From positions 248,001-312,000 of the forward strand of contig NW_026960609.1 in NCBI RefSeq assembly GCF_021018805.1: a stretch of DNA of 64,000 bases. Reading direction: 5' to 3'. The position numbers and the translations under genes were made by a program. The stretch is from Prinia subflava (taxonomy: Eukaryota; Chordata; Aves; Passeriformes; Cisticolidae). Numbering within the stretch: position 1 is the first letter of the stretch; each line of letters opens with the position of its first letter. The notes under the pieces are model-generated. The model was not told where the DNA came from, searched no databases, and saw only the letters and a list, made by a program, of their open reading frames with translations. Shown one piece after another: positions 1-61,305 of the stretch.

Positions 1-224
1 AGGCTCTCACCCTTAGCTGCAGTAAGATGTTTATTTCCAGATGGTGTCCGGGGAAAGAGAGGGTGTCCCCAGAGGGACAGGGTATTTTCTCAGGACTTCT
101 GAGGGTGGGGCAAGCTGGCACACAGCCAACGGGGGTCAGAAAGGGAAGGAAGGGTCAGTCTACATGACACGAGCTCTAGGGGTCCCTGAGGGGGGAGAAA
201 CCATTCCCACAGGGGAATGTAACA
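1..224 (-). mobile_element. Partial 3' LTR of the left provirus
   Basis: On the minus strand it begins TGTTACATTCCCC at 224 and runs off the left edge. It aligns by eye along its whole length with the 3' LTR of the right provirus (57094 to about 56868), including AATAAA-like and CTGACCCC blocks. It does not resemble the LTR at the other end of its own provirus (3865-4654). No polypurine tract precedes it. Confidence 0.75.
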
Positions 225-603
225 GAGTGTTATAGCTACTAACTGGGTGCTTCTCCACGCCCGGGTCTTCCCTCTCACTCCGTTCAGTGGGGGTACTTCT
301 TTAAATTGCCAATGCCGGGGCCAATATGCTTGTGGGATGATTGAACAATCAGATCCTGTGTCCCCCCAAAACTGAAGCCCTATGACGTGGGGGTCCCGGC
401 TGCCATAAACACGGCATGTTCCCCAAATCATCAGGGACTCCTTCCATATTTTCATGGCCAGGGCCACCCAGGGGTCCCGCTCTGGGGCGACTCCTGCTGG
501 CCCTGTGGTGCAGGCGCTGCTTGCGGCGGCAGTGGGTACGAAGGCACCGCTGGCGGTATTGTAAAATTCTGTAAATGTGTGGCTGTCGAGGGTGGAAAAC
601 CGG
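225..603 (-). pseudogene. pro fragment of the left provirus
   Basis: Part of a minus-strand open frame containing FWGDTGSDCSIIPQ, with the retroviral aspartic protease triad DTG at 354-362. The frame continues a short way and then enters the LTR at 224. The protease C-terminus with its conserved GRD-type helix is missing, so the enzyme is truncated by the internal deletion. Confidence 0.75.
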
Positions 604-3600
604 CTATCCCCTGTGGGGCATGGGGTATGAGGGTTCCCCGCCCAACTGGGGGTTGGCATAGATGGGCCGCCTTGCCTTCGCAGTGGGAGGAGGCTGGGTG
701 CGGCCCACACGCCCCCTCCCTTTCCTGTTTCCCTGAGGCCGGGACTTGCAGTCTTTGACAAGGTGCCCCTTCTTCCCACAGCCCCAGCAGGGCCCTCTCG
801 CACGTGCTTGGAGCGGGGGCTGGGGACAGCTCACTGCGATGTGGCCTGCCTGGCCACATTTGAAGCATGCCATTTGTTGGGGGTTAGATTTGTTCTTTTT
901 CTTCTCACAGAATTTTTTCCCATAAGTTTCCAAGAAGCCTTTATGACTACTTAGAACAAAAGGGAGTACTTGGAGGACATGGCAGCACAAGGCTACACCT
1001 ATTGTTTTTGAGTCCCTGGGAGTGTCCCTCAGAGGGGAGAGATGATGAGCTTTGGGAAAGGCAAAAAGACAGCTGGGGGAGGGCAACTCGCTCTCAGCAC
1101 CGAGGAGGACAGTCAGGCTGCCCCTCGCTGCAGGAAGAGTTCACGGCCATCACTCTGCCTCTGCCTCGTCCTGGGAAATCTATCGTCATCTGCTCCTGTA
1201 CCCAGGAATCCTGAGCTTGCCTTCTCCAGCCCTCCCCCCACCGCCGCTGCTTCTTCGGAGCTTTGAGGTTCCCCTGCTACTCTGTAGCCCTGCACTGACC
1301 AGCCCTGCCGGGACACCCCTGCTGCTCCAGCTACCAGCGCAGAGCTCCCCATCTCTTCCACCGGCCTGGGACTTTCCACCCTTCCAGCTCAGCCTCTCGG
1401 AGTCCTGCAGGGGCGCCGAGATCAAACTGCCCCGGGCTTTCTGTGAAAGCCCTCAAGGTTCTTGGTTCTGTTTATTATTGATGCTGTAGTTGTTGTTTGT
1501 TTGTTGTTTTGTCATATATACTAGTAAAGAACTGTTATTCCTATCCCCATACCTCTCTCTGAAAGCTCCTTTAATTTTTTTTAAAAATTAGAATAGTTTG
1601 GAGGGAGGGGATTTGAATTCTCCACCTCTAGAGAGGTCCTGCCCCCTTCCTAGCAGATATCTGTCTTTCAAACCAAGACACCATTGCACTGGTTAGGGTG
1701 CGGACGGCTGCTTGGATGGGTGTCAGGTGTTCCTCTTTTACGACATGTTTAATCATGTCGGCGAGGCTGGCTCTGGCCGGCAAGGAACGCAGAATGTCCT
1801 TGGTGGTGGAATTGCCCTGCAATCAGCCACCACGGGGCCCCTTGCCTCTGGAGGCAGGGTAGATGAGTCTACTGCTGCCTGGAGGCGATCCACAAACTGT
1901 GTGAAACTTTCACTCTCCGCCTGTTTTATGCTGGACCATGGGGATGGCCTGGCCACCACTCAGGATGCGGCTCGAATGGCTTCCCTCGCGGCCTGGGTGG
2001 TGGCCCTGACTTCCTCAGCCAGCAGGTGTGCGGCTTGCTGCTGAGGGGTTATCATCTCATCATGTTTGCCCATCAACCTGGACAAGCTGGAGCCGTGCAG
2101 TGGCTGTCCTGCCCCAGAAGTTTGGGTCAGTAAGTTTGTGCAACTATCTTTCCATTCTTGTTTGAAAACAATCATACCCGCGCCGTCAAAAATCATGCGG
2201 CCTATTTGTTTAATATCAAAGGGGAGCAAATCATAATTGCCAAAAAGGCCATCCATGAGTGTTGAGACCATGGCTGAATTAATTCCTTTCTCTGAGATTG
2301 CTTTAACAATTGCCTGTACATCTTTGGGGTTTACCGGCTTGTATGTTCTCTGCTGGTTCCCTTCTGGCCCGGTAACTCTCACAGGGAAAGCTCGCACTGT
2401 GGCCGCGGGAGCCCACTCAGCACAAGCTATCTTTATCTTTCCCCAGTCAGTGAAGTGGGCTGGCTCGTATTGTGAACCCTTTTTGGAATGGCTCAAAGCT
2501 TTATTCGTTTTCGCTTTAAACCGCATCGGCTTTTCCCTTTCCGTTTCTGAGTCCCAGCCATCTTCCGTCAGCTCTCCTGAGCTGCTGGAGCTGCTGCTGC
2601 TGGACTCAGAGTCGGAAGCTGAATGCCAGCACGCTTCCGGGCTCCTGTGCTGTTTTGTGCGGCTCTGGCCCCGCCCCTCTGTTCGGGGGTGGTGCTGCTC
2701 CCGCTCCCTGGGCTTGCCCTGCCTCCTGGGGGGGGAGGTCTCTCCCTTAAATGGAAGCAGCATTGAGCGCGGCTCCCGACTGGGCATGCGCTCTCTGCTG
2801 CCCTCCCGCGCAGGCCCGTTTGAGAAAGCCCGCAACTCCGGACAGAGCGCGCATTCGCCTGCCGCTCTCGGGCGCATATGTGCCCGTGGAGAGCCGTGGT
2901 GCCGCTTTGGGCATGCTCTCTCTCCCTTCTTGCCGCGCGTATGGGTCAGCAAAAGTCCGCGACTCCTGCCCGAGCATGCACTCTTATCCCTCTTCCCCGT
3001 CTTTTTCTCGTGCATGCGCATCAGCAAACACCCGCCGCTCCAGGCTCTCCCCGCCGAGGGTATCTAGGCCCCACCCCTCCCTTCGGCCAGCGCCATTTTC
3101 AAAGCCGTATGGCGGGGTTGCTACCCGCTTGTCCTCCCTAGCCGCGTTTTCGGCATCCCTGGCTTCACCCGCCAGTTCCTCCCAAAAAACCCGTGCCTGG
3201 GCACCGAAACGCTGGCTGGCGGCGAAGAGATGGATGGGGAACTTGCAGATTTTCGGGAAGGTTCCGCGGGTGAGGGGAGACCTGACGGGTTTGGCGGGGG
3301 GGCCCGGGGGTTTTCTGAGGGCATCGGGGGGTTTGGGCTTGGGCTCAGGGAGCTGGGAAACACGCCTGGCTCCCATGGATCTCCACCCTCGGACAAATCG
3401 CGTTCAGACGCTGTTGGCGTTGTGGCTCCTATCCCCAGCTTGGGGGTAGATAGCAGACATATGCGTGCGGCGCTCCAGAATTCCTGTTCCTCAAGCGCCT
3501 TGTGTAGGGCTTGCTCGACCTTTCCCCATGCTTTGAGGCTTTTGCCGCTGCCCAAAGATTTTGTATCTTCAGCTAGTGCGGCCGTGCATCTCCCCCACAC

Positions 3601-3741
3601 CTCCGAATGGAGGATTTCTACTGGGCGCTCAATCACCTCAAGCTCTAATAATCTTGTGACAGCAAGTTGAAAATCCTTGAGCTTGCACTTAATTCCCCAC
3701 TGTTTGTAAATCATACTTACGACCTTCGCCATGGCCTCCAT
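604..3741 (-). pseudogene. gag of the left provirus (alpharetrovirus-like), broken
   Basis: The start is ATG at 3739-3741. Matrix (3741 to about 3400) is followed by a Pro-rich segment with a stop at 3121. Capsid continues in other frames (3027-1960, then 1959-1753 with the major homology region SFTQFVDRL, then 1822-1681). The solo LTR at 875-1680 splits capsid from nucleocapsid, which has two CCHC knuckles (CFKCGQAGHIAVSC and CWGCGKKGHLVKDC, near 874-710). At least two frameshifts plus the insertion make it non-functional. The matrix layout and the splice donor inside gag (GTAAGT, 3715-3720) point to an alpharetrovirus relative. Confidence 0.75.
875..1680. mobile_element. Solo LTR (family X, copy 1) inside gag
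   Basis: An 806-bp TGTTGGGGG to CAAGACA block (TG...CA) flanked by the exact 5-bp repeat CCATT (870-874 and 1681-1685). It interrupts the gag frame between capsid and nucleocapsid. A second copy of the same family lies at 16129-16943. Poly(A)-like motifs occur on both strands (AATAAA on minus near 1475), so orientation is not assigned. Confidence 0.85.
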
Positions 3742-3864
3742 TGGCTGGTCCGACCGTGTCCCGTCCGCCAGAGTCGGTTTCTTTTCCCGCCCTGGCCGCT
3801 GCTTCTGTCCAGGTGAAAACCCCGATTCCCGAGGGTTTTTTCCTCCCAGGTTTCGGCACCAGAA

Positions 3865-4654
3865 TGTTGCCTTCCGATAGAAGGCAAGGCAACCTGGGTT
3901 CCAGAAAACAGCACGGACACTTGGCCTCTGCCAAGTTACTTGGTCCACAGATGCCCTGGTTTAGGACAAATTAGGGGAAAAACTCCACAACTCCCTCCCC
4001 CACCACCGGGTTCGGGAGGAATTTCCTCAGAGGAAAAGTGGAAAAAACTTGTTTATTAAGAAACAACAAAAAAACACTCCCCAACACAAGAAAAACAGTC
4101 CGAGATGACAACAAATGTTTTCACCAGTCCAAGAGAGGGTGAGCAGTCTCTGCTGGGGAGGGTGCCAAAGCTTCTCTCAGGTGCAGACTCCGGGGGGGGG
4201 GGTCCCTTGACGTTCCCGAATCAGGGCCCGAAGCAGGTCCGATGTCTTCAGGGAAGGGGAGGAAGGAAAGAAGGGGAAAAACAAAAGCAGAAAAATGGCA
4301 AAAAGCAAGCAAAAAAGCAGAAAGCAAGAGAGCAAAGCCAGCAAAACGAGCCTAGCTATCAGCAAGCAAGCCAAAAGCAAGCAGCCGGGGGAGGGGCTCA
4401 GCTATAGACAAAACAAACTGAGAACATGGGAACAGAAACACACGATTTGGGATACAAAGCATGAAAATGTCCTGTCACCCCAGGACAACAGACACACTGG
4501 CATCAGTATGATGGATGGTCCAAAATGGCTTTTATTCTTTTACCTCATGGTGTTAAATAGTCAAAGGGGGCTTTACTACGTCAGAGGGGGGCGGAGGGTC
4601 CTTATCTTTCCGTGACATCCGAGATCTTCCGGGCGCCTGTCCTTATCTACCACA
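3865..4654 (-). mobile_element. 5' LTR of the left provirus, split by a nested LTR
   Basis: The left boundary is set by TGTTGCC at 3865, three bases from the primer-binding-like site. The outer LTR is 3865-3946 plus 4493 to 4617-4654. It contains a TATTTAA promoter motif and AATAAA on the minus strand. The remainder is the nested solo LTR. The right boundary is either TGTCACGG (4617) or TGTGGTAG (4654); without a second copy I cannot decide. Confidence 0.6.
3952..4487 (-). mobile_element. Solo LTR nested in the left provirus LTR
   Basis: A 536-bp block, TGCCCTGG to CAGGACA on the plus strand, flanked by the 5-bp repeat ACAGA (3947-3951 and 4488-4492). AATAAA on the minus strand (near 4050) gives the orientation. 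It is a distant relative of the solo LTR at 37706-38355, sharing the GGTTTAGG(A/G)CAAAT start, the GAAAAGTGGAAAAAA block and the GGGATACAA end. Confidence 0.8.
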
Positions 4655-6757: not shown

Positions 6758-6941
6758 CTAGTCAGCTATATAATTGCTTTGCCCTGAACTTTCATGTCCA
6801 TAGCCCAGGGCCATTTTGCCAAGTGTTAGTGAGGGCTTGCTGTTCAGAGAGTCTAAGTGAAACTCAGCTTGCGGAAGGAGGTCTCCACACCACTGTCACA
6901 CATGCTTTCAGTGTCTTGAAATCTGCTATTGTAGAGCTCAC
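6758..6941 (-). pseudogene. NFKB1: NFKB1 terminal exon: IKK degron then stop and frameshift
   Basis: The exon reads GELYNSRFQDTES, then CDSGVETSFRKLSFT. DSGVETS is the p105 degron phosphorylated by IKK and read by beta-TrCP, and it is intact. The Glu codon that should follow SFT is TAG (6853-6855). A few codons later the tail is continued only in another frame, which ends in TAG at 6758-6760. The acceptor is CCCTCAG at 6942. Confidence 0.85.
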
Positions 6942-8854: not shown

Positions 8855-9027
8855 CTATTAATTATCTAGCAGAGTCTTCGATGGGGAAGGGCTCAACCTG
8901 AAGGCATTACTAAGAATGCCAAGACCCAGTTTTTGTGCTAGGGTGAACCAGTTTTTAGTTGGATCAGGCAATTCCAATAGTTTGTAAAGCTGCATGTTGG
9001 AATTCTCAGTCAGCTCTCTCAAATGTC
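8855..9027 (-). pseudogene. NFKB1: NFKB1 C-terminal exon b (death domain) with tandem stops
   Basis: Encodes [19 protein letters not shown], then [19 protein letters not shown] and [11 protein letters not shown]. This is the first helices of the p105 death domain, well conserved. The expected Tyr-Glu codons before the donor are TAA (8858-8860) and TAG (8855-8857), so the exon ends in two consecutive stops right at the splice junction. The acceptor is CCCCAG and the donor GTAATG. Confidence 0.9.
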
Positions 9028-10004: not shown

Positions 10005-10071
10005 CTTGTGTGAGTAAGTCCTCCAAAACCTCTGCTGATTCGTAGGGTTGGCCATTTAATATGTCGTACAC
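10005..10071 (-). pseudogene. NFKB1: NFKB1 C-terminal exon a (post-ankyrin linker)
   Basis: Encodes VYDILNGQPYE and LEDLLTQ plus one base, matching the p105 segment between the last ankyrin repeat and the death domain. The acceptor is TTCTCTTAG and the donor GTAACAC. It is a 67-nt exon in phase 0. It is the first surviving exon left of the 10-kb provirus, whose LTR begins 82 bp upstream in the intron. A solo LTR ends 33 bp beyond its donor. Confidence 0.88.
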
Positions 10072-10152
10072 CTAAGAGAATACATTAAAGTCAGTATTTA
10101 GGAGTATTAAGTGTCCATTAAGTTTTAGCAGTGTTATATAAAACCCTAAATC

Positions 10153-10801
10153 TGTAGTGGTGTGTTAATGAGTTCTTTATATTTTCTAAGTTTTTCTAAG
10201 CTCTTTGTAAGATGGTTTGTTCCTTGTACCCCCTGTTTTGCCTTCCTGATAGTTGCCGCTGGAACTCCTCCAGTAACTGTTAGGTGTCAATCCTTTTCCC
10301 CCTCCTCCCTGGAGCCTGCCTGTCATCTCAGAGCCCTGCCTCAGAGCTAGACAGTTCTGTGAGGGGCTTCGAGTGATAGGCTAGGTTTGGGGAAAATCCC
10401 CACCCCTCCCTTCTGTGTGGTCCTCGTTTGTGTCAGTCACCTTCCTAGCCTCTCCTGTATTGAACCCAATTGGTTGTACCCTCCTCACCACCCTCTGTAC
10501 TGCCCCCCAATAAAAGGGGGTCTGAAAAAGCCAAAATTGGCTCGGTCTGAGCAAGTCCTTGGCTGGTGGGGAGGCTCCGCCTGACCCCTCAAATAAACCC
10601 CCTTGGATTTACTCAGCCAGCTCCTCCCTTCATTCTCCGCCATCGTCTGCCCCTTGCCACCTGTGCCTTGAAGTCTCGTCGGAACCAAAAACCCACTGGA
10701 TCGGCTTGGCTTGCACTGCTCGTCAGCCGTACCTGCTGCTTGCCGTGGTGCCTGAGCTAGCCTAGGTAGGTCGGGACCGCGTTCTGAGAGGCGCTGCGAC
10801 A
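10153..10801 (+). mobile_element. 5' LTR of the central provirus
   Basis: 649 bp, TGTAGTGG to GCTGCGACA. It contains CAATAAAAGG near 10507 and CAAATAAACC near 10589 (promoter and poly(A) candidates). It aligns throughout with 19658-20302. The sequence just after it (GCTTGACG...) is not an obvious primer-binding site; TGGGGCCCC about 16 nt downstream is the nearest TGG candidate. Confidence 0.92.
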
Positions 10802-11709
10802 GCTTGACGTCCATTGTGGGGCCCCTGGAGACATCGGAGGACCCCATGGAGAGGACCGGTGGACCGGGGCGCAGCGAGTCCGGATCCGCGCTTCATCCCT
10901 TGACTGCAAGCTACGTCAGTTATAGCAGCCCACCGCACGGGGGGGGTGTGCTCCCGACGGCTGAGAGGGGCAGCTTCTTCAGCCCGGAAGAAGTCCCCCT
11001 CAGGAGGAGATTTCCCTGAGACTGAGCTTTCCCCTCATCGCCAGAGTTTTGGTGAGCTCCTCCTGTTCCCTCCAAGGGACAGGAGCCTCGATCCTTTTTT
11101 TCCCCGAACCGGAAGCACGGTGGTCTCTGAATTCAAGCCTCCAAGGCTGCGCAGCCCTGGGGTTGTGTGTGGTAGCCCCCTCCCTGGCTTATCCCTCTCT
11201 GGCGCTTTTAGTTGTTTTGGTGGTTTCTCATGGTTTTAATTTGCTCAGTTGCTTTTGGCGTGGCAGCCTCGCGGCGGGGGCGGGGTGCACGCATGGTGAC
11301 AGCAGGCAGAGCGTGCGGCGGGAGCAGCAATTTGTGCATGGCGTGGCAGCCCGTCGGCTTTTTGGTGCGCAGAAGCCCGCCGGCTTTTCAGAGCAGCGAC
11401 AGCCCCCGTGGCCGGCGCAGAGGCAGCCCGTGGCCGGCACGGCGGCGGTCCCTGCACGCAGCGACAGACCCCTCGGCTTTTCGGCGTGGCGGCCAGCCAT
11501 TCAAAGTTCGTATGGCTGATAGTCTCCGACGGCCCGGCGATTTCACGGTCGGCTTTGTTACCAGCCAAAGTTCCCGTGGCTCCCCGGGGGTCAGAGGCAC
11601 ATGCGGCTCCCCCCGGTTTGAAGAGAGCATGCATTTGGTTTTAAGTTCAGTTTTCCTGATTTGTGCTCAGTCTAGTGAGTGTGTGCTGCAGCTTATCATC
11701 GGAGCCACA
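10802..11709 (+). other. Leader of the central provirus
   Basis: About 900 bp of GC-rich, stop-interrupted sequence between the 5' LTR and the gag start. It presumably held the primer-binding site, splice donor and packaging signal. I cannot place them individually. Confidence 0.5.
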
Positions 11710-13658
11710 ATGGGTGCTAAGCTCTCCGCAGCACAAAAGGGAGTTTTTTATGGTTTAATTGATGTTTTGCATGCTGCCCAAGTTAAGCCCCCTTAAGGGC
11801 GATTTGAAAAGGTTTGTCTGCTAGGTATTTCTCCATTTCCTCCAAACGTCCCCTGCTTCCATTCACTGCGCTCAGTTTTGGCACGCTGTGGAAGACAAAA
11901 TGCTGGAATTGGGAGAGGCAGAGGGCGAATCACTTCCCAAAGTTGCTTATCTAGCCCTGCAGTTTAAAACTGCTGCTTTGAAAAGGAGAGGGATGGAGAA
12001 ATCACCGAGTTGTGGGCGACCTCCCCGGGTTCCCCCTCTACTCAGTCCCAAACCCTCTCGGTGAAGCAAGGGAATTCTAAAGGGGAGTGACAGGCAGCCA
12101 GCCTGTCAGTTCAGGCTCCCTGTAGGTTCCCCAACCCCCGCACCCGAGCACTCTTGGACAGACTGCTCGGGACTTCTCGGATTACCCTGGCCAGGCAACC
12201 CGAGAACCTTGCCCACCCCCACCTTTCCCAGTTAGAAAGGCCAGAGTTCGTTTTAGTGTTGCAGAGGCTGAGCCATCTCAAAATGGTGCCCACTCCCTCA
12301 GGACACAAAATGGCCGCAACCACGTGGCCCGATCGTCCTCTGTGTCCTTCCCTTCTCCTTCCCGTAATCCCTTTCACTCATCCAACTCTTTTCTGTCCCC
12401 AAGTCCTCCTACTTCCCACAATGACTTTTCCCCGCCTTCTCCAAAAACCCCACCCACTCACCCTGCCCACCAACACGCCCCTAGGGTGTCATTGACTACT
12501 GCCCAAAACACGCCCCCTCACGGAAGGTGGCCATCTTGGAGCTCCGGTTTCCACACCCCTCCCATTGGTTCCCACGCTCTGCCCTCCCTGTTCCCATGAT
12601 GGAAACCAGGAAGATGAGGGGCAAGAGCCTGAAACCCAGGACCCAGACCCAATTTCAACACTTGCCCCAGTCACATTTAAACGAGGCAGGGGTGGGCAAG
12701 CCCCTCATCCCAATTGGCACTCCTTCTCCCAATCTATTATCAAGGACCTCTGTAAAGCCCACAAAGAATATGGTAGGGAAAGTCCCTACTTTCAGGGACT
12801 TCTCGCTGCTGATCTCGCAGGTGTGGTGGCAGTCCCAGCTGACATCAGTTCTTCTCCTGCCTCATGACATCCACAGAGTATAAACTCTGGGAACGGGCAT
12901 GGAGGCAGCTGCTCAAGGACGCCCTCCCCGATTTGCTCTTGAACCCAGACACAGCAGTGGATGAACAGGGCTATGCCCTGACCCTAGAACATCTTTGTGG
13001 TGAGGGATAATGGGTCACTGCCCCAGCGCAGGCTGCCGCCATTCCTGTCCCAGCCCTTGAAATTCTGAAACAATTAGCAGGCAAGGCTTTTTTCAGTCTG
13101 CAGCCACATGGTCCCCTTCCACCTTACACACAGATTTGACAAGGGCCATTGGAATCTTTCGTAGACTTTGTAGAGAGGTTCACACGAGCCATTGAAATCC
13201 AAATCAAAACAGAACATGTCAGGGAGGGAATACTAGAGGAGATTGCCTTTATTAATGCAAATGATGCCTGCCGTGACACAATCCTCAGTCTTCCTCTAGA
13301 CCCCCCTCGGACCTTGAGGAGTATGTTACAGGTCTGCCAAATGAAGGTTCCTTTCATGGCCCCTCCACCAAGACAACATCTGAGACAAATGCCCCAGAAT
13401 CATCCCCTGAAGGCTGCAGCTACTGAGGCCATCACCACAGATTCATCTTCTGGGCCTGCCAACGTTCCATTGCCTCGCCGGACATCCTTTCGGCGTCCTC
13501 CAGACAAACCCTGCATGCTACAAGGACAGTCTGGACACTGGATGCCCGACTGTCCACTTAAGAAGGAGTTCCAGGACTTTGAAAATAAAAAACAGGGGGG
13601 ACAGGGGGAACCTGAGGGAGGGAAACCTGGGCCGAACCCAAGGGTTCAAAAAAACTAG
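11710..13658 (+). pseudogene. gag of the central provirus, broken
   Basis: ATG at 11710 opens MGAKLSAAQKGVF, an N-myristoylation-type Gly-2 start like that of the right provirus, but it stops at 11794-11796. Later pieces show capsid (12717-13100), a stop near 13017, and 13149-13658 with the major homology region VDFVERFTRAI. There is one zinc-knuckle relic, CMLQGQSGHWMPDC, whose second Cys is Gln, so it cannot bind zinc normally. Gag is non-functional. Confidence 0.8.
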
Positions 13659-14592
13659 ATGAGGAGCGCGAGTCCACCCTGTGCCAGGACATAAATAGGG
13701 TGAACCGGGCAGGGAACAATGGGGAGGGGAGACAGTCAATTGACACAACAGTGCCTTCTCATGTAGAGGGAACCATGACACAGTCCACTTCTATCGACAA
13801 TCTACTGGACATGACAAAACCCTTTGAATGCGATCTAGCCAGACCAATTCTAACGACAACCTCTTCCTCTGAACCTTACAGGTTGCAGTTGACAAAGCCT
13901 TTGCTCCTGAATGACGATGATTGGCATTTTCTCGCTGCTGACCCTAGCGACCTGGAGAACTGGCTTCAGATCGAAGGTGAGTTCTTCATCATCAGGGATT
14001 GCAAATACACTCCGCAGGCGATCAAGGTTATCCCGGGAAAACTCAGAACTAATCCCAGAGGCCTTGTTCTCTGGCTGCGTTGCTCCCACCTGCCAACGTT
14101 CCTCCCAAGAGGTCAGATCGTGGCGCAGGCCATTCCTACCGTGGACCCCACAGAAAAAGATGTCCCCTCGGCCTGCCCAGTCCAGAAGATCACCACCGAC
14201 AAACCGAAAATAATATGCAAATTTAGGGTGGGAGAGGAGACCCTGGACATTGAGGGTCTCCTGGATACCGGAGCATATGTGACGATCATGCCTGCAAGGT
14301 ATTGGCCATCACATTGGCCCTTACAAAACGTGGCCGGAAACGTACAGGGTGTAGCAGGCATCCATTAGCTAAACAATCAAAGGAAGTGGTCCAAATTGAG
14401 AGGCCAAAAGGGCAATTGGCAAGCCTCTGCCCTTTCGTTTTAGATTATAAGGTACCTTTGCTTGGACGAGACCTCATGGCCCAGTGCGGGGTCACAATTA
14501 ACATCCTAGACCCCTCACAGGATTTTTGGGTGGTGGTCACTGAGAAGCGCCCTACCCAGAAGCTGAATTGGCAAACAGACACACCAGTGTGA
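13659..14592 (+). pseudogene. pro of the central provirus (dUTPase-like part plus protease), frameshifted
   Basis: The open frame 13700-14368 carries an N-terminal part ending RGQIVAQAIP and then the protease triad LLDTGAYVTI. It hits TAG at 14366-14368. The rest (LLGRDLMAQCG) lies in another frame up to 14592. The N-terminal part resembles the dUTPase-like domain that precedes protease in betaretroviruses; this is an inference from motif spacing. At the former pro-pol shift site (GGATTTT, about 14520) the two frames are fused by an indel. Confidence 0.75.
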
Positions 14593-17500
14593 GTAGAACA
14601 GTGGCCGCTCACAAGAGAAAAATTAAAGGCGCTTCATAAGCTCATGGAAGAGCAGCTGAGAAAAGGTCACAATGAGGAGACCATTTCACCATGGAATTCT
14701 CCCGTTTTTGTCATCCATAAGGCTGACAAAAGCAAATGGCAGCTCCTTCACGACCTCAGGCAAATCAACGTTATTGAAGATATGGGGTCACTCCAGCCAG
14801 GGATGCCTTCCCTGACCATGTTCCCCCAAGATTGGAAACTGGCAGTCATTGACATCAAGGATTGCTTTTTCCAAATTCCCCTACATCCTGACGATGCCCC
14901 ACGGTTTGCATTCTCGGTTCCCTCTATCAACCGAGAGGCCCCAAGAAAGCACTACCATTGGCGAGTTCTCCCGCAAGGGATGAAGAACAGCCCGGTGATT
15001 TGCCAATGGTATGTAGCTTCCTTGCTGTCCCCGGTCCGCGCAGCCGCAGAGAAGGTCATTATCCATCATTACATGGATGATGTCCTCATTTGCACCCCCA
15101 ACGATGACCTGCTAACCCACGCGCTCGACCTCACAATCAGTGCATTGGTTGTTGCAGGATTCGAGCTGCAGGAGGACAAGGTTCAACGCATGCTGCCTTG
15201 GAGGTACCTAGGGCTGGAGATCGGTAAGCGGACCATTGTGCTGCAAAAATTGCCAATAAAGACCAAAATTAGTACCCTTGCAGATGTCCATCAGCTGTGT
15301 GAGGCATTGAACTGGGTGCGGCCCTGGCTGGGTCTGACCACCGAAGACCTGGCCCCCCTTTACGATTTATTGAAAGGGGGAGAGGAGCTATGTTCTCCTA
15401 GGGCGCTTACCCCAGAGGCACGGAAGGCCCTGGAAAAGGTCCAAGACACCATGTCTACCCCGCAGGCCAACCGGTGTGACCCAGACCTGCCTTTTAAGTT
15501 CATCATTACGGGTAGACTGCCACACCTCCATGAGGTGATTTTTCAATGGGACAGTGCACGAAAAATGCCAAGAACATCCAAAAAGGACCAAGGAGGAGGA
15601 GATCCTCTCTTAATTATAGAGTGGGTCTTCCTCAGCCACCAGAGGTCCAAAAGAATGACAAGGCCACAAGAGTTGGTGGCTGAGCTGATTCGGAAGACAA
15701 GGACCCGAATCAAAGAACTGGCCGGATGTGACTTCAAATGCATTCACATTCCAATTGGTTTACAATTGGGCCAAATTACAAAGCCCATGTTAGAACACCT
15801 GCTTCCAGAGAATGAAGCGCTGCAATTCGCTCTGGACTCTTTCACAGGCCAAATTTCAATTCATAGACCTGCTCTACAAAATTTTCAATTCGGAAGCCCA
15901 ATTTACATTGATGCCGTCAAGCATTCGGAGCAGGAAACCCTTAGAAGCCCTGACAGTGTTCACTGACGTGTCCGGAAGACCCCATAAGTCAGTTTTCACT
16001 TGGAGGGATCCTCAGACTCAGCGGTGGGAGGCAGATATTGCTGAGGTGGAAGGATCACCTCAGGTCTCCGAGTTGGCCACTGTGGTCAGAGCCTTTGAAA
16101 GGTTCCCTGAACCATTCAATTTAGTAATTGTTGGGGGTTAGATTTGCCTCTTTTTCACTTACAGAATTTTTTCCCATAACTTGCTAAGAAACCTTAATGA
16201 CAGTACTTAGGCAGAACAAAGGGAGTAGTTGAAGGACATGGCAGCACAAGGCTACACCTATTGTTTTTGAGTCTCTGGGAGTTTCCCTCAGAGGGGAGAG
16301 ATAACACGAGCTTTGGGAAAGGTAAAAGACAGAGCTGGGGGGGGAAGTTGCTCACTTTTGCTCTCAGCATCGAGGAGGACAGTCAAGCTGCCCCTTGCTT
16401 CAGGAAGAGTTCATGGCCATCACTCTGCCTCGTCTTGGGAAATCTGCCGTCATCTGCTCCTGCACCCAGGAATCCTGAGCTCGCTTTCTCCGGCCCTGCC
16501 CCTACCGCCACTGCTTCTTTGGAGCTTTGAGATTTTCCTGCTACTCTGTAGCCCTGCACTGCCCAGCCCTGCCAGGACACCCCTGCTGCTCCAGCCACCA
16601 GCGCAGAGCTCCTCATCTCATCCACCAGCCTGGGACTTTCCACCCTTCCAGCTTGGCCTCTCGCAGTCCTGCAGGGACACCGAGATCAAACTGCCCTGGG
16701 CTTTTGGGAAAGAAAGCCCTCAAAGTTCCTGCTTCTGTTTATTATTAATGCTGTAGTTGTTGTTTGTTTGTTGTTTTGTCATACATACTAGTAAAGAACT
16801 GTTATTCCTATCCCCATACCTCTCTCTGAAAGCTCCTTTAATTTTCTGGGTTGGGATAATTTGGAGGGAGGGCATTTGAATTCTCCATCTCTAGGGAGGT
16901 CCCGCCCCCTTCCTAGCAGATACCTGTCTTTCAAACCAAGACAGTAACTGACTCCGCATATGTTGCAGGAGTTGTGTCCAGAGCAGAACAAGCCATCCTG
17001 CAAGCGGTGTCTAACGTGACACTCTTTGAGTTGCTCTCAAAACTTGTCAAGCTGGTCTCCTACCGAGAGCAACCGTTTTATGTGATGCATACGAGGTCCC
17101 GTACCGATTTTCCAGGGTTCATTGCTGAGGGAAACAGGAGGGCCGATGCTCTTGCTGCCCCCGCGGCAATGACCCCTCTGCTGAATATTTTTGAGCAGGC
17201 AAAACTCAGCCATCAAATTTTCCATCAAAATGCACCTGACTTGGTGTGACGATTCCGTATCTCCTATCAGCAAGCCAAGGCCATCGTGGCCGCATGTCCC
17301 TCATGTCAACAACACGCCCTTCCCACTTTACATACAGGCGTAGACCCCAGAGGATTGAACAGTGGTGAGCTGTGGCAAATGGATGTTACCCACATTCCAG
17401 CATTTGGTAGACAAAAATACGTTCACGTGTCTGTGGACACCTTTTCCAGTGCAGTCTTTGCCTCTGACCACACAGGGGAAAAAGCCCAGGATGCTATCAA

Positions 17501-18128
17501 GCATCTAGTACAGCCTTTCTCCTTCGTGGGCATCCCAAAGGCCTTGAAAACCGACAATGGCCCTGCGTACCGCTCCAAGGAGCTCCGCAGCTTCCTGCGA
17601 CAATGGGGAGTGGAGCACAAAACAGGCATGCCCCATTCCCCAATGGGCCAAGCAGTGGTAGAAAGGACCCACCGTGAGATCAAGCGAGTCCTTGCTCAAC
17701 AACAACCATTTTTAAAGGTGGAACCACCCTCGATCCGATTAGCCAGGGCATTATATACAATCAATTTTTTGAACTGCTCCTTTGAGGTTTTGAACCCACC
17801 AATCATATGTCATTTTGGAGCAAATGGACAGCTGCAGATCAAGGAGAGGCCACCAGTTCTGGTAAAGGTCCCTGAGACCAGACAGACAGAAGGGCCTCAT
17901 GAGTTGGTCACGTGGGGACATGGGTACTCTTGCGTGTCCACCCCCACTGGCCTGAAATGGATCCCATCCAAGTGGGTGAGGCCCTACGCCCTGAAGGTCT
18001 CAGGGAAAAATGACAACGTTCCGCAGGTCGCAAAGGCAGCGTTACGAAGAAAACCTAAAGACAAGAGTACGTGGGAAGAACTCCCCTTTCCCCCTAGTCC
18101 CTGTCCAGGTGATTGTGTTTTATTTTAA
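14593..18128 (+). pseudogene. pol of the central provirus, broken and LTR-interrupted
   Basis: A TGA at 14590-14592 precedes reverse transcriptase (14644-15966) with YMDD in HHYMDDVLICTP. A frameshift near 15960 moves RNase H into another frame (FTDVSG, then EGSPQVSELA), which is cut by the solo LTR 16129-16943 and resumes at 16944 (VTDSAYVAGVV). TGA at 17247-17249 interrupts the integrase N-terminus. The integrase core (17286-18128) keeps its catalytic Asp, Asp and Glu (DVTHIPAFG, KTDNGPAY, VVERTH). Not functional. Confidence 0.88.
16129..16943. mobile_element. Solo LTR (family X, copy 2) inside RNase H
   Basis: An 815-bp TGTTGGGGG to CAAGACA block, closely similar to 875-1680. It is flanked by GTAAT (16124-16128) and GTAAC (16944-16948), a 5-bp duplication with one change. 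It splits the RNase H codons for Leu-Val and Thr-Asp-Ser-Ala. Being nested, it is younger than the central provirus. Confidence 0.88.
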
Positions 18129-18186
18129 GTCTTTTCCAGTTACACTGCATTGAGCCCAGACCCGAGCCTCAATCCAAAAGAGCACC

Positions 18187-19626
18187 ATGTGGATACCACT
18201 GTTCCTGGTTGCTTGCTTTGTCCTGCAAACGCGAGGGTGGATCGTGCCACAGCCGAAGGCCAATGTGTAGGCTACGCTTGCCAGAGCGATGGGCCAAGAC
18301 CACATTTGTTTGTCCTCGGCATCAGCAGCCGATCCATTGACAACCTGTCTTGTGGGGATCCCTTTTAAGCTTGAGGAATTCCCCCCTCCTCTGTTGAAAA
18401 TTATGGCTGCCGTTAACAGACTGAAACCACCCCATAGAGTCGCCCAGTCCTCCATTACCCACAAAGTAGGTATACCCGTCCATAACCCCTTAGTTTTGTG
18501 GAGAGATTATGTTGCCACCCTGCCTCAGTTGTCCAAAGCCCCTGTTGAGTTGGAGATCCTTGGTTCCTCCAGTTCCATGTGGTGTGTTCAGTTTATTTTT
18601 GATCCACCCAAAGGCCAGGAGAAGCTGCTCCACCCAGTTCTCCAGATAAAGGAAGTATATAAAGCCGGAACGTGGTGTGACAGGATCGCCCATGTAATGA
18701 TGGCCTCTACTCTAAATTATAAGCCCCTGGCCCTTCCCAAAGGTAGTTTCCTTATTTGTGGCAACCGAGCGTGGGCAGGCATCCCCCCTTGCCTGACAGG
18801 AGGTCCATGCACCCTTGGCCGTTTGAGCCTGTTTACACCAAATAAAACCCAAATTATGAAATGCAGAAAGAAAAATTCTACTGTTATTTTGGCCTCCAAA
18901 AAGATCCAAAAGAGAGATCTGGCTGATTTGGACCCAGACTGTGACTCGGAAATTGTTCATTGGTCTAGACCTAAAGGTGCCGCCATCACAGTCTTTTTTC
19001 CATGGGTCTCAGCAGCAAAAGCACTCGGAGAATTGGGCCATCTAGAGTGCTGGGTGGCTAAACAGGCAAACTTTACTTCCAACGCCCTGGCTGACCTCCT
19101 AGCAGAAGAGGAGATAACAAGGCAGGCGACACTTCAAAACAGAGCCACGATTGATTATCTACTCCTCCTCCATGGCCATCACTGCAAGGAGTTTGAAGGA
19201 CTCTGTTGTTTTAATCTAACCTCAAAAGCAGAAAACATCTGTAAGACTATTAATCAGATGCAGGACCTGGTACACGAAATCAAACAGGAAAACAACGATT
19301 GGTTCAGTGGACTTTTCAAAGGTTAGGGGCTCTCAGGCTGGGCAAGTTCTATTCTAAAACCTTGTTTGTTGGTTGTGTTTATCCTTGTTATTGTTTTAAT
19401 TGCCTTTGGAATTATTAAGAGGATGATCAGTAAGTTGATTTTGGGTGCTACCTCTCCCCCTTCCGTTAATCTAGTTACCGTTCCAAGTGCACCGGAAGAG
19501 TACGAAATGCAGGAGATTGAAGATGCAGAGGAGCAGCCCTACCCTCCTTACCCTCCTTATGAGGACACTTCAGAATGGGTTGCTGAATCAGATCCACAAT
19601 TCGAATATCCTCCACCACCCTTCTAA
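18187..19626 (+). pseudogene. env of the central provirus: one frame, two stops
   Basis: The ATG at 18187 starts a signal-peptide-like MWIPLFLVACFVLQTRG. The frame is intact to 19626 except for TAG at 18268-18270 and TAG at 19324-19326. The surface part ends near KKIQKR (basic cleavage-type site). The transmembrane part has a hydrophobic fusion-type segment, the covalent CKEFEGLCC (CX6CC) motif, a membrane anchor (19360-19420) and a Pro/Tyr/acidic tail. The CX6CC type is the gamma-type envelope also carried by some betaretroviruses. Confidence 0.85.
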
Positions 19627-19657
19627 TTCTCATCATTTTAAAAAGAAAAGGGGGAGA

Positions 19658-20302
19658 TGTAGTGGTGTGTTGAGTTCTTTATATTTTCTAAGTTTTTCTA
19701 AGTTCTTTGTAAGATGGTTTGTTCCTTGTACCCCCTGTTTTCCTTCCTGATAGTTGCCGCTGGAACTCCTCCAGTAACTGTTAGGTGTCAATCCTTTTCC
19801 CCTTCCTCCCTGGAGCCTGCCTGTCATCTCAGAGCCCTGCTTCAGAGCTGGAAAGTTCTGTGAGGGGCTTTGAGTGATAGGCTAGGTTTGGGGAAAATCC
19901 CCACCCCTCCCTTCTGTGTGGTCCTCGTTTGTGTCAGTCACCTTCCTAGCCTCTCCTGTATTGAACCCAATTGGTTGTACCCTCCTCACCACCCTCTGTA
20001 CTGCCCCTCAATAAAAGGGGGTCTGAAAAAGCCAAAATTGGCTCGGTCTGAGCAAGTCCTTGGCTGGTGGGGAGGCTCCGCCTGACCCCTCAAATAAACC
20101 CCCTTGGATTTACTCAGCCAGCTCATCCCTTCATTCTCCACCGTCATCTGCCCCTTGCCACCTGTGCCCTCGACGTTTCGTCGCAACCAAGACCCACTGG
20201 ATCGGCTTGGCTTGCACTGCTCACCAGTCGTACCTGCTGCTTGCCGTGGTGCCTGAGCTAGCCTGGGCAGGGCGGGACCACGTTCTGAGAGGCACAGCGA
20301 CA
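19658..20302 (+). mobile_element. 3' LTR of the central provirus
   Basis: 645 bp, TGTAGTGG to ACAGCGACA, directly after a polypurine tract. It differs from the 5' LTR by small indels (for example TTAATGAG against TTGAG) and scattered substitutions. Host sequence resumes at 20303. Confidence 0.92.
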
Positions 20303-21433
20303 TAATTCCATCTGTAAATCAGCATTTTTTTCCTCTCCCGGGCTCAGTATGACTAAGAACACTAGAAAACCTGTGCTAAACTTAGGGAGAAATCTTGAGA
20401 AGTTAATTTCCTTTTATTCTAAGCTGTGTCATCTGGCAACTATTTTCAAGACACAGAGGAAGTCTTGGAGTAAATAAATGGCAGTAGCCGTGGCTATAAG
20501 CAAGGACCTGCTGCCTGTCTGCAACTAGTCATTTAAAACAAAGCCTGGGTTAGATTTTCACCTAAGGCTGGTACCACTCCCCAGCTCCAGATGATTAAAG
20601 ATGCTGACTGCTTATCCTTTATACTCACACCAAGCCAAATCCACAATAATCTGCTTAATCACTGTTTGGGTAGAACACAGGAGTGCATTTTCCCACCACA
20701 CACAGGCTGCAATTATGAAAAACACTCAGCAAAGAAACCTACTGGAGAATGGGCCTTCAAACACAAACTACCCATCCAGCTAAACACTTTCCCACACTGC
20801 AGACTAGTGCAGCTACTTCAAGAACTACCTGATCACTTTTGTTCAGCAGCATTAGTCAGTTCAATGGAGCTTTCTTCCTGTGCTGTTTCATCAGGGAGTT
20901 TTATGGCTGAATTAGCTTAATTTTTGAGGGCAAATTAGTTGAATTAATTGAAATTAATTAATTAAATAACTCGCCAGCTGTACCTGCTGCTTGCCGTGGT
21001 GCCTGATCTAGCCTAGGCAGGTCAGGACCGCGTTCTGGGAGGCCCTGCAACAAGTATCTCCAATTTTTAACAGTTCTTTGCACTAACAGGGTTAATTTAC
21101 CAAATTCCACTTGTGATCCAAGAAACAATTCAGAACCTGTTTAATTTTAGACACCCAAAATGATAAGTAACTGAGCTGTCTCATGAATTTCAGTGCCTCC
21201 AAGGCTCTAGAAAACAACAAAGCTTCCAAAGTGGGAAGGCAAATGAGATGATAAAATGTTTAGAATAAAGAAATGCTTGGTTAAATTGAGTAACAGTAGA
21301 ATAAAGGCAACAGAGTCAGGTCTTATATGCCTAGGTGACTAAATGCTCTTTACATTTTAAAAATCAGCATAAACATCTGTCCTGCTCTCAAAGTAGAACT
21401 CTTTTCCCTCTTTGTCCAAAACTGCTGCCTTAC
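20303..21433 (-). other. Intron remnant where the p105 ankyrin exons should be
   Basis: About 1.1 kb of non-coding DNA lies between exon 11 and the 10-kb provirus. Read on the minus strand in all frames, I find no ankyrin-like exon (no HLA or TPLH-type motifs) and nothing resembling the rest of the glycine-rich region. It holds an LTR 3' stub (20970-21052) next to an ATTAA-rich tract (20940-20969). An AATAAA on the minus strand near 20412 could end a read-through transcript. Together with 10072-10152, this is all the host DNA left where NFKB1 normally has about ten exons. Confidence 0.75.
20970..21052 (+). mobile_element. LTR 3'-end stub next to NFKB1 exon 11
   Basis: 83 bp matching the last 83 bp of the central provirus LTR (shared TACCTGCTGCTTGCCGTGGT) and ending GCAACA where the LTR should end. 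The 5' part of the LTR is missing and the junction is an ATTAA-rich tract. It is more diverged than the two provirus LTRs are from each other, so it belongs to an older or separate insertion. It may mark a deletion breakpoint. Confidence 0.8.
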
Positions 21434-56361
<34,928 letters not shown>

Positions 56362-57135: not shown

Positions 57136-58491
57136 TCAAATTCTGTTTGACACGGAGTGTGGGTTTTCCCACCACTTATGGTTGGTAGGGAGACCAGATC
57201 GCTTTAGATTTGCCAACTCTATATGGTTGACTTCTGAGGTAGAAGATATGAGGCCATTAATAGCCTTGAAAATCAAACAGCGTAGGATCCCGAATGCTAT
57301 GGTTACAAGGAAAAGGATAACAAAAAGTAACAAAATTGTTTTAACTACAGAACTCCACCACCCAGTGAATCCCCAGCCCTTGAACAGTTCCTTGATCCAA
57401 TCTTCAGATTCTTGCTTCACTTGTCCGATCATGTTGTTCATGCTTCGGAGGGCAGCATGGATGTTTGGAGCCTTTGAGGACAGATTCATGCAACAGAGTC
57501 CTTCAAATTCCTGGCATTCATGTCCATGCAATAGCAAAAGATAATCGATAGCAGCACGGTTCTGGATCGTGGCCTGTCTGGTAATCTCCTCGTCTTATAG
57601 GAGGGAGCTGATGGCGATGGATGTTAAATTAGCTTGCTTGACCACCCAGCACTCTAGGTGGCCCAATTCACCTAGAGCTTTGGCTGCTGCTACCCACGGA
57701 AGAAACAGTGATACAGCAACTCTTTTTGACTTTGCCCAATGAAAAATGTCTGAATTACAATTTGGGCCCAAATTGTCAGCACTCCTCTTTTGAATTTTGT
57801 CTGCCGATTTGTTTTTGTGAGTCCATTCGCAAATTAAAGTTTGGTTGGGTGTCAACACGGACAATCGCCCTATGGTACATGGCCCTCCGAAAAGCCGGGA
57901 TGGAATTCCTGCCCATGCCCGATCCCCACAAACCAAGAACAATCCTCTAGGGAGGCTTCTGGGTTTGGAGTGAGATGGGTTGTCTGGTGCAATGTGGCTT
58001 ATATTATGACACCACCTCTTTGCAGTAAACTCTCCCCGGAACTGCCTTATAAGGTGGTACTCGTCAGTGTTAGGGGGTTTTGGGATGATAGAGAACTGGA
58101 TGCAGTATGTGGCGGGGGAGGAACCCAATAGTTCTAACTCCTGGGGTTCATGAGCTACCCTGGGCAAACCCTGCACCCATTCTGCTAAGGGGTTCATGGC
58201 GAACACACCTTGCTTTTGATGATCTTTGTGTGGTTGTGGGGTGTGTGCCTCTGGAATTTCGTTGGACCTGTATTTGTCCAAGCCTGCTGGAAATTCTCCA
58301 GCCTGCAAAGGAATTCCTACCAGACAGGTGGACATAGGGTTCTTAGCTGCTGCAATGGACAAACATATGTTTTCCTGCTGAAGTGTCTGTGCCAGGGTTA
58401 CCCAGACGTTCTGACGTGGTTGAGGGATGATCCATGCAGCTGCCAGACTGTTCAGCATTAGCAGGATGACAACTTGGATGGGGTTCATCAT
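57136..58491 (-). pseudogene. env of the right provirus: single in-frame stop
   Basis: ATG at 58491 with a hydrophobic leader (VVILLMLNSLAAAWI). The frame runs to 57136 with only one stop, TAA at 57595-57597, which falls in the transmembrane subunit between the fusion-type segment and the heptad region. Basic cleavage-type site KIQKRS, CX6CC motif CQEFEGLCC, membrane anchor near 57330. The cytoplasmic tail differs completely from that of the central provirus. As it stands it could give only the surface part and a truncated transmembrane part. Confidence 0.88.
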
Positions 58492-58587
58492 AGGGTTGAG
58501 TGGGAGGTAGGTTTTCTCTAGAAGGGAAAAATAAACATTTTTAAAACATGTTAAAAGGTTCCTGTTTCTGCCAGAAGGAATCCACCT

Positions 58588-61305
58588 CTAGTAAGGTTCT
58601 TTCTCTTCCATCCGGCGGCGTCTTCTCTTCGAAGCATCAGTCACTTGCTTCTCATCCCCTTCTGCTGGAGCTGGATTTTTGGGGACAAAAGGTTTCACCC
58701 ATTTCTGGGGAATCCACCGAGGGCCTGAGGGAGTAGCCACACATGCATAGCCACGACCCCAGGTCACAAGCTCATATGGACCTCTGGTTTCCCAAGTTTC
58801 AGGATCCCTAATCAAAACCGGTGGACGCTGAGACAATTTAAACTGATTACCACTATTAAAATGACGTACCACAGGTGGACTCATGTTTTCAAATGAACAG
58901 TTCAGAAAATTGATGGTGAACATGGCTTTGCAGAGCTTCTGCTGTGGAGTCATCCATGAAGCCGAGCAGTTCTGCCTAGCCAGAACCTGTTTGAGCGTCT
59001 GGTGTGCACGCTCGATCACAGCTTGACCTGTGGGGGAGTGAGGGATGCCAGTTTTATGCTCCACTCCCCACTGCTGGACAAATTCTAGGAACTCCTTGGA
59101 CACATACGCTGGGCCGTTATCAGTTTTGATTGTTTTTGGAATTCCCAACACTGCAAAGGCTTGCGCTAGGTGCTGCTTGGCATGTATGGATTTTTCTCCT
59201 GCGTGGGCAGAGGCATACACTGCACCTGAATATGTGTCAATGCTCACATGAACATATTTGAGGCGACCAAAACTAGGAATGTGTGTGATGTCTGTTTGCC
59301 ATACCTCACAGCTGCCCAGGCCCCTGGGGTTAACCCCCATGCCCATCGATGGCATGGCCTGGAGCTGGCAGTTCGGACAGGTACCTACAATGGCTCGAGC
59401 CTGGCTCCATGTTAGCTGGAATTGTCGGATCAGGGCTGGCACATTTTGATGGTAATGTTGGTGACTCAGTTTTGCCTGTTGGAAGACATCAGGGAGATGT
59501 GCCTTTTCAACTGGTGCAGCAAGGGAGTCTGCCTGGCGATTCCCCTCTGCGATCTCACCTGGCAAATCAGTGTGTGACCTCACATGCATCACGTAAAACG
59601 GGTGCTGTCGATGAAAAACCAAATAGATTAGCTTTGAAAGCAACCTGAAGAGATGTTCATTCTCTATTTCTTTGAGCACAGCCTGCTCCGCTCTGGACAC
59701 TACTCCCGCCACATAAGCAGAGTCAGTTACCAAATTGATTGTTTCTGAGAACTTCTCAAAAGCTCTTACCACTGCCGCCAGTTCAGCCACTTGGGGGGAT
59801 CCCTCCACAAACTCAACATCAGGTTCCCAATGCTGAGTCCGTGGGTTCCTCCAAGTCATCACTGACTTGTTGGAAGCCCCCGATGCGTCTGTGAAGACTG
59901 TGAGAGCTTTGAGTGGTCTCCGACTCCTTTTCTCACGAGGAATGAGGTGGACTTCCTCACTGAACAACTTGTGGGACGGGGCATGGACTGATATTTGTCC
60001 CTTGTAGCTGTCCAGAGATAACTGGAGACTGGCATTACTCTGCAGCAAATGCTCAAACATCTCTTTGGTCAATCTCTCAGGAGAGTTCTTTCCCTCCTCT
60101 GAAAGTCTGATCGGGAGGTGAATACATGCAAAGTCACAACCTGCCAATTCACACAATCTTACCCTGGCCTTCCGAATCAGCTGCGCTATCAGCTCCTGTG
60201 GCTCTGTGATGGTCTTGGATCTTTGGTGGGAGAGGAAAACCCACTCTATTATCAAGAGTGAATCTCTCTCTTCCTCGATCCATTGAAAGATCAAACCATG
60301 CAGATGTGGCAGTTTTCCTAGAACAATGAACTGGAAAGGCGCCTTTGGCTCACACCGGTGAGCCTGTCTCTCTGACAAGGCTTTTTGTACCTTTTCGATT
60401 GCTGTCTTCGCCTCTGGGGTCAGCTCCTTGGGAGACGTCAGCTCCTTCTCCCCCTTCAATAAATTGAAGAGGGGTTCTAGATCTTGATTTGTGGGGCCTA
60501 GCCAGGGTCTTACCCAATTCAAAGACCCACACAGGGAGTGGAGATCTGCTAGGGTTTTTGGATTGCAACCAATTTCTAAGCTCTGAGGAACAACAGTCCT
60601 TGCAGTGATTTGCAAGCCCAGGTATTTCCAAGGTGGCATCCTTTGAACCTTGTCCTCCTGTAATTGAAATCCAGCAGAGGTTAAAACTTTAATCACTAGG
60701 TCAAGCGTGTGTTGGAGTATAGAGTCATTGGGGCCACACACTAGCACATCATCCATGTAGTGAAGGATGATGGCTTCTTTTCTCTGTGCGCGTATTAGAG
60801 ACAGTAATGAGGCTACATATTGTTGGCATATGAAAGGACTCGATTTGAGACCCTGGGGAAGGACCCTCCAGTGATAACGCTTCATTGGGGCCTGTCTATT
60901 GACAGTGGGAACTGAGAAAGCAAACCTTGGGGCATCTTCAGGGTGCAATGGAATTTGGAAAAAACAGTCTTTGATGTCTAAGACAGCCAATTTCCAATCT
61001 CGGGGGAGCATTGTTGGAGTGGGCATTCCTGGTTCCAGAGGTCCCATGTCTTCTACTATTTTAATAATTTCTCTTAGATCATGGAGCAACCTCCACTTGT
61101 CCTTTCCTGGTTTCTTTATTACAAAGATCGGGAAATTCCAGGGGCTTGTTGTCTCCACAATATGTCCCTGAGCTAATTGCTCTTCCACGAGTTTTTCCAG
61201 CGCCTTGAGCTTTTCTTTACTCAAAGGCCACTGTGCTACCCATCTGGGGGTGTTTTCCAACCACTTTAACTTCTGGGTAGGGCGCTCCACAGTGGCTACT
61301 TGCAA
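58588..61305 (-). CDS. pol: pol of the right provirus: uninterrupted RT, RNase H, integrase
   Basis: 905 codons without a stop. Reverse transcriptase holds the catalytic Asp in AVLDIKDCF (residue 110) and YMDD at 183-186. RNase H holds Asp 473 (FTDASG), Glu 508 and Asp 528 (VTDSAYVAG). Integrase has the zinc-binding His 615, His 619, Cys 643, Cys 646 and core Asp 672, Asp 729, Glu 765 with exact DDX35E spacing. Expressed in retroviruses from the gag-pro-pol RNA by frameshifting; the first codon here is in the overlap with pro. All catalytic residues I can check are present. Whether it is transcribed is unknown. Confidence 0.92.
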   Translation of the reverse strand: MQVATVERPTQKLKWLENTPRWVAQWPLSKEKLKALEKLVEEQLAQGHIVETTSPWNFPIFVIKKPGKDKWRLLHDLREIIKIVEDMGPLEPGMPTPTMLPRDWKLAVLDIKDCFFQIPLHPEDAPRFAFSVPTVNRQAPMKRYHWRVLPQGLKSSPFICQQYVASLLSLIRAQRKEAIILHYMDDVLVCGPNDSILQHTLDLVIKVLTSAGFQLQEDKVQRMPPWKYLGLQITARTVVPQSLEIGCNPKTLADLHSLCGSLNWVRPWLGPTNQDLEPLFNLLKGEKELTSPKELTPEAKTAIEKVQKALSERQAHRCEPKAPFQFIVLGKLPHLHGLIFQWIEEERDSLLIIEWVFLSHQRSKTITEPQELIAQLIRKARVRLCELAGCDFACIHLPIRLSEEGKNSPERLTKEMFEHLLQSNASLQLSLDSYKGQISVHAPSHKLFSEEVHLIPREKRSRRPLKALTVFTDASGASNKSVMTWRNPRTQHWEPDVEFVEGSPQVAELAAVVRAFEKFSETINLVTDSAYVAGVVSRAEQAVLKEIENEHLFRLLSKLIYLVFHRQHPFYVMHVRSHTDLPGEIAEGNRQADSLAAPVEKAHLPDVFQQAKLSHQHYHQNVPALIRQFQLTWSQARAIVGTCPNCQLQAMPSMGMGVNPRGLGSCEVWQTDITHIPSFGRLKYVHVSIDTYSGAVYASAHAGEKSIHAKQHLAQAFAVLGIPKTIKTDNGPAYVSKEFLEFVQQWGVEHKTGIPHSPTGQAVIERAHQTLKQVLARQNCSASWMTPQQKLCKAMFTINFLNCSFENMSPPVVRHFNSGNQFKLSQRPPVLIRDPETWETRGPYELVTWGRGYACVATPSGPRWIPQKWVKPFVPKNPAPAEGDEKQVTDASKRRRRRMEEKEPY

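Follow-up and report, generated by a model that had tools for sequence, protein, structure and literature searches.

We wanted to know whether the cisticolid warbler Prinia subflava has lost p105, the inhibitor encoded by NFKB1. The question was raised by a 64,000-nt stretch of its genome (C40:248001-312000, from here on the window), which lies on a 3.70-Mb contig of a 1.12-Gb assembly of 537 contigs. The original prediction, made from the letters of this stretch, was that the NFKB1 copy in it has lost its ankyrin block and cannot make p105, and that the bird has either a p50-only NFKB1 or a decaying second copy of the gene. We found a complete NFKB1 on another contig, C53. We therefore read the window copy, with a probability of roughly 0.93, as the decaying neo-W gametolog of NFKB1, the working full p105/p50 gene being on the neo-Z.

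The NFKB1 copy on C53 (103.2 Mb) has 23 coding exons, including all ankyrin exons, with AG/GT at every internal border and an open frame of 981 residues. The annotated Prinia subflava protein P0121 matched its product in a protein search with 100% identity over the whole query. Compared letter by letter, the two were one alanine apart, at the tandem acceptor of exon 3, and P0121 carried a 36-residue N-terminal extension. Since this copy is complete and open, Prinia subflava has the p105 gene, and a bird with a p50-only NFKB1 was not supported. The assembly search for ankyrin exons proposed with the original prediction thus recovered the full set on C53 and not in the interval between the window exons. 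Further, we searched the assembly for NFKB1 at the protein level (51 of 131 candidates scored). Outside C53, identity across the ankyrin part reached at most 65% among these, on C9, where the locus carries the exon set of a paralogue.

C53 is the Z chromosome (neo-Z), as judged from a cluster of DM-domain genes and from CHD1, NIPBL and HNRNPK, all of which we take to be genes of the avian Z that also have W copies. The assembly gave five DM-domain matches, of which three were clustered at C53:100.04-100.14 Mb and two were on C10. CHD1, NIPBL and HNRNPK were all found on C53, with one further copy of each on C37, C48 and C41, respectively, as expected of Z/W gametologs. A third match of the CHD1 family, on C15, probably represents the paralogue CHD2. 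W sequence thus seems spread over several contigs of the assembly, among them C37, C41 and C48.

We compared the window copy with the one on C53. C40:252655-331788 was collinear with C53:9298950-9359807 and in the same orientation: 22 blocks of at least 80 bp, covering introns as well, aligned at 80.6-96.8% identity, and one further match was a repeat in the opposite orientation. The Kimura two-parameter (K2P) distance between the copies was 0.062 over 24,918 sites in nine blocks, of which eight were intronic and one also held exons 21-23; each of the nine blocks gave a divergence of 5.8-6.9%. Besides a provirus in intron 19, the window held extra DNA at six tested places, with flanks overlapping by 3-11 bp on C53. 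We read the copy as a neo-W gametolog because its introns are kept, it is collinear with C53 at approximately 6.2% divergence, and it carries insertions that C53 lacks. A processed retrocopy was rejected on the same introns and collinearity. Window 28939-33489 is an insertion of approximately 4.55 kb not present in C53. It ends in 335-bp direct repeats (28938-29272 and 33156-33490) that are 99.1% identical, and is probably a very recent long terminal repeat (LTR) element.

For the age of the split, residues of the two copies were polarised against 11 other chosen songbirds, with exon 23, the stops and an Asp deletion left out. The 26 residue differences in 534 columns comprised 16 derived states of the window copy, 7 of the C53 copy and 3 unclear cases. 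Five of the seven C53-derived residues were common to Cisticola and ancestral in the window copy. A tree likewise grouped the Prinia C53 copy with Cisticola (94/94) and left the window copy outside, at weak resolution. Because of these shared residues, with which the tree agrees, the comparison points to a Z-W split older than the split between Prinia and Cisticola.

Next, we determined how much of NFKB1 is left in the window. The 23 exons of C53 were searched against its minus strand by blastn, and 15 of 23, coding exons 1-11 and 20-23, were found there. Exons 12-19 (8 of 23; 1,142 nt) gave no match on the window minus strand; these encode the remainder of the glycine-rich region and every ankyrin repeat. 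The same picture was obtained by tblastn with a human p105 query. Residues ~40-399 and 785 onward were matched on the minus strand, while no window match with E < 0.8 started within residues 400-784. The Rel-homology exons matched p50 of solved structures, and the exons after the gap matched the p105 death domain 2dbf, both by sequence. The gap between exons 11 and 20 holds a provirus, the 83-bp end of an LTR and approximately 1.13 kb of further sequence, almost all of which can be aligned to introns of the C53 copy. In these respects the original prediction was borne out: exons 11 and 20 are clear, the ankyrin block between them is missing with no ankyrin-like translation in the window, the gap holds a 10-kb provirus, an LTR stub and about 1.1 kb of non-coding DNA, and without exons 12-19 the locus is unable to make p105. 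Scans of the window for tRNA genes and Rfam families gave no hits. The features are listed below by window position ("mapped" means mapping from the C53 copy).

56317..56361, minus strand: coding exon 1 with ATG (mapped)
55122..55206, minus strand: coding exon 2 (mapped)
46195..46232, minus strand: coding exon 3; its acceptor is the second AG of a tandem NAGNAG, also used by the annotated Prinia protein P0121
43491..43589, minus strand: coding exon 4, with the RFRYVCEG loop (tblastn and mapped)
43489..43490, minus strand: lost splice donor of exon 4, AT here and GT on C53
35578..35726, minus strand: coding exon 5 (mapped)
33903..34066, minus strand: coding exon 6 (mapped)
28423..28581, minus strand: coding exon 7 (mapped)
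26689..26793, minus strand: coding exon 8 (mapped)
24728..24816, minus strand: coding exon 9, minus one Asp codon
24028..24166, minus strand: coding exon 10 (mapped)
21434..21556, minus strand: coding exon 11, with the nuclear localisation signal (NLS) and the start of the glycine-rich region; last before the gap (tblastn and mapped)
20970..21052, plus strand: 83-bp LTR end, the exon 11-side (upstream) edge of a deletion of ~14.18 kb
20960..20969, no strand: short AT-rich filler at the deletion junction
10153..20302, plus strand: provirus in intron 19, antisense to NFKB1, with LTRs at 10153-10801 and 19658-20302
10005..10071, minus strand: coding exon 20, first after the gap (tblastn and mapped)
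8855..9027, minus strand: coding exon 21 (death domain); its last two codons are TAA TAG here and TAT GAG on C53
8546..8720, minus strand: coding exon 22 (mapped)
6758..6941, minus strand: coding exon 23, with a 4-bp deletion giving a frameshift and an immediate stop

The lesions that block a normal product are therefore of several kinds: 8 of 23 exons deleted, the exon 4 donor lost, two stops and a frameshift. We also considered a lost exon 3 acceptor and rejected it, as the second AG of the tandem acceptor is intact and P0121 uses it too. A TTTC microsatellite is expanded directly upstream of exon 3 (window 46237-46367), and only the second AG of the NAGNAG is left there.

Could the W copy still be alive as a p50-only gene, which has lost the ankyrin block and makes a short Rel-homology protein in females? 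All Rel-homology frames were open, and the remaining exon borders keep AG/GT except at the exon 4 donor. As regards frames, the earlier statement that the p50 part is open therefore stands; it fails at the exon 4 donor, where GT has become AT so that not all p50 splice sites are usable, and at exon 9, which has lost an Asp codon. The predicted transcripts differ in what follows. In a transcript that includes exon 4 and joins exon 11 to exon 20, the frame shifts and runs for 427 residues to a stop in exon 21, approximately 150 nt before the end of that exon. If exon 4 is skipped, the frame ends after 394 residues and lacks 33 residues with the RFRYVCEG loop, to which we ascribe a DNA-contact role; if intron 4 is retained, there is a stop after 92 residues. 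In principle, a weak-looking in-frame GT that lies 6 nt ahead of the lost donor could save exon 4 at the cost of two residues. Where a stop precedes later exon junctions by a good distance, as here with exons 22 and 23 to follow, nonsense-mediated decay is expected. Because of the lost donor and of the stop that follows the joining of exons 11 and 20, a normal p50 from this locus appears doubtful. Compared with p50 as made from NFKB1, the window copy is alike in its Rel-homology frames, its NLS and the start of the glycine-rich region; it differs by the lost exon 4 donor, by the frame shift after exon 11 and in having no p105 precursor to process.

We then analyzed substitutions between the copies. 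The p50 part differed at 15 of 400 positions, with a low ratio of nonsynonymous to synonymous change (dN/dS): 0.0152/0.118 by NG86 (~0.13) or 0.0194/0.081 by YN00 (~0.24). In exons 20-22, the values were 0.0395/0.136 (NG86) or 0.0451/0.098 (YN00) over 136 codons, stops left out. These values suggest that, for a large part of its history, the W copy probably evolved under constraint. Derived changes in the window copy and on C53 numbered 10 and 2 in p50, and 6 and 5 in exons 20-22. On these counts, p50 does not stand out as a target of selection; 9 of the 10 window-derived p50 residues sit where all other compared songbirds agree. We therefore consider a living p50-only gene quite improbable, its open frames and low dN/dS notwithstanding, and presumably no useful product is made from the W copy. 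There is a very slim chance that the copy is transcribed with exon 4 skipped. This would give a female-only Rel-homology protein with the dimerisation domain and the NLS, which would lack the DNA-contact loop and the I-kappa-B-like part and act as a sex-limited dominant-negative of NF-kappa-B.

The window copy might also be an assembly artefact, either a misjoin or an alternative haplotype of a single NFKB1 locus. We regard this as very improbable. The divergence seen in all nine blocks is unlike that of an allele or a misjoin, the edges of the provirus and of the LTR stub are base-precise against C53, and the copy has both its insertions with short flank overlaps at six places and residue differences predating the Prinia-Cisticola split.

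In chicken and zebra finch, NFKB1 is presumably a chromosome 4 gene. Published work reports sex-linkage of a stretch of this chromosome in two cisticolids: on Parus major coordinates it begins at 13.8 Mb and ends at 47.3 Mb in Cisticola juncidis and at 45.1 Mb in Camaroptera brevicaudata (PMC13097842). A second study places the Cisticola stretch at 13.8-49.1 Mb on zebra finch (PMC13333021). The window copy resembles the degenerating neo-sex-chromosome W gametologs of Sylvioidea (PMC11255319, PMC13097842, PMC13333021). Here too there is a cisticolid bird with a complete Z copy and a W copy that is losing exons and carries insertions not present on Z. The Z-W split is apparently older than the Prinia-Cisticola split, and the case fits the published sex-linked part of chromosome 4. 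The main texts of these studies contain neither NFKB1 nor Prinia, whereas here one gene is traced to the base. Among the papers listed on NFKB1, its ankyrin part and pseudogenes in birds, W gametologs, bird neo-sex chromosomes and Prinia subflava, with most subscription papers outside the coverage, we found no description of this W copy.

From the pairing of C40 with C53, the decay of the copy and this literature, we infer that C40 belongs to the W. The alternative of a decaying second copy, offered in the original prediction, is thereby supported and sharpened to a neo-W gametolog, the W linkage of the contig being an indirect conclusion. Several observations weigh against it. CHD1, NIPBL and HNRNPK have their second copies on C37, C48 and C41, and none of these is on C40. 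The flank C40:238001-252654, which includes window 1-4654, had no match of at least 80 bp to C53:9276001-9298949. The tree is weak, with 0 of 11 inner branches at the mark of the tool and 9 of 11 open. The p50 exons are still well conserved, so that either the decay is recent or p50 was constrained most of the time. Finally, a search with a 10-kb part of the deleted C53 segment (39 of 3,385 candidates scored) returned 53 matches, all at query 862-1414, with its own place unlisted. This search was swamped by a dispersed repeat and is uninformative as to whether the exons have been displaced to another site. The repeat itself, at 862-1414 of L011 (the Z copy of the deleted segment, on C53), has matches on many contigs. 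Beyond the 3' end of NFKB1, the window part of the unmatched flank (1-4654) bears retroviral similarity.

Songbirds also have a germline-restricted chromosome with copies of normal genes. A decaying extra copy on this chromosome, rather than on the W, would look alike, and C40 is without CHD1, NIPBL and HNRNPK. Against this, C40 is collinear with C53 over approximately 60 kb of C53, the sex-linkage of chromosome 4 in Cisticolidae predicts just such a W copy, and second copies of three Z genes are present in the assembly. We therefore regard a germline-restricted copy as very unlikely and return to the neo-W gametolog.

How did this gametolog lose its ankyrin exons? Window 20959 corresponds to C53:9304471 and window 21053 to C53:9318651; exons 12-19 lie in the 14,179 bp that separate these two points on C53. 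Judging from this alignment, the exons were lost in one deletion of approximately 14.18 kb with its upstream edge inside an LTR. The exon 11-side edge is base-precise: host DNA abuts the terminal CA of the LTR, of which 83 bp are left. The opposite edge can be placed to within some bases, as host DNA there runs through approximately 10 bp of AT-rich filler. The provirus lies approximately 0.66 kb from the junction and shares its LTR family with the 83-bp stub. On C53 its two flanks share 6 bp (9303814-9303819), a target-site duplication that reads TAAATC and TAATTC in the window, with one mismatch. Because of this overlap, the insertion removed no host DNA, and the provirus is a separate insertion and a bystander to the deletion. 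That the provirus took the place of the exons, or caused their loss by insertion into or recombination across the ankyrin block, can practically be dismissed in spite of its position in the gap and the common LTR family, since its flanks meet on C53 and the junction is some distance away with host DNA on one side, so that recombination between LTRs does not account for the junction in its present form.

In seven frames scanned with Pfam, six of them within the provirus, matches were found in four: retroviral protease, reverse transcriptase, integrase and a piece of avian gp85 envelope. The two LTRs of the provirus differed by a K2P distance of 0.040 over 644 sites, less than the Z-W distance, and the provirus may be younger than the Z-W split or about as old, as rates may vary. 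Provirus-related stretches were also seen at window 57460-61511 (opposite orientation, 66-73% identity) and 874-1680 (87% identity).

The events in the decay of the non-recombining W copy would be as follows. An LTR element would have inserted in intron 11. A later deletion, starting inside this LTR, would have taken all but its last 83 bp together with the ~14.18 kb that held exons 12-19, and was presumably closed by end joining with the short filler at the junction. A different provirus would have inserted in intron 19, before or after this deletion, without removal of host bases. Small lesions would also have struck the exon 4 donor, the death domain and the C terminus.

In summary, what appeared to be a bird without the p105 inhibitor was resolved into what is most likely an ordinary case of W-chromosome gene decay, on a neo-W and of a gene thought to be dose-sensitive. 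A W contig viewed alone can mimic gene loss. The locus provides a base-level record of the death of a W gene, with an LTR-edged deletion of approximately 14 kb and small lesions, the provirus being a bystander. NFKB1 is haploinsufficient in people. Gene loss from the W of Sylvioidea is reported to spare haploinsufficient genes (PMC11255319), and females with one working NFKB1 copy would be a modest exception to this sparing. The remaining interest lies in a dose-sensitive immune gene of which females have lost one copy, and in the small chance that the W makes a dominant-negative protein.
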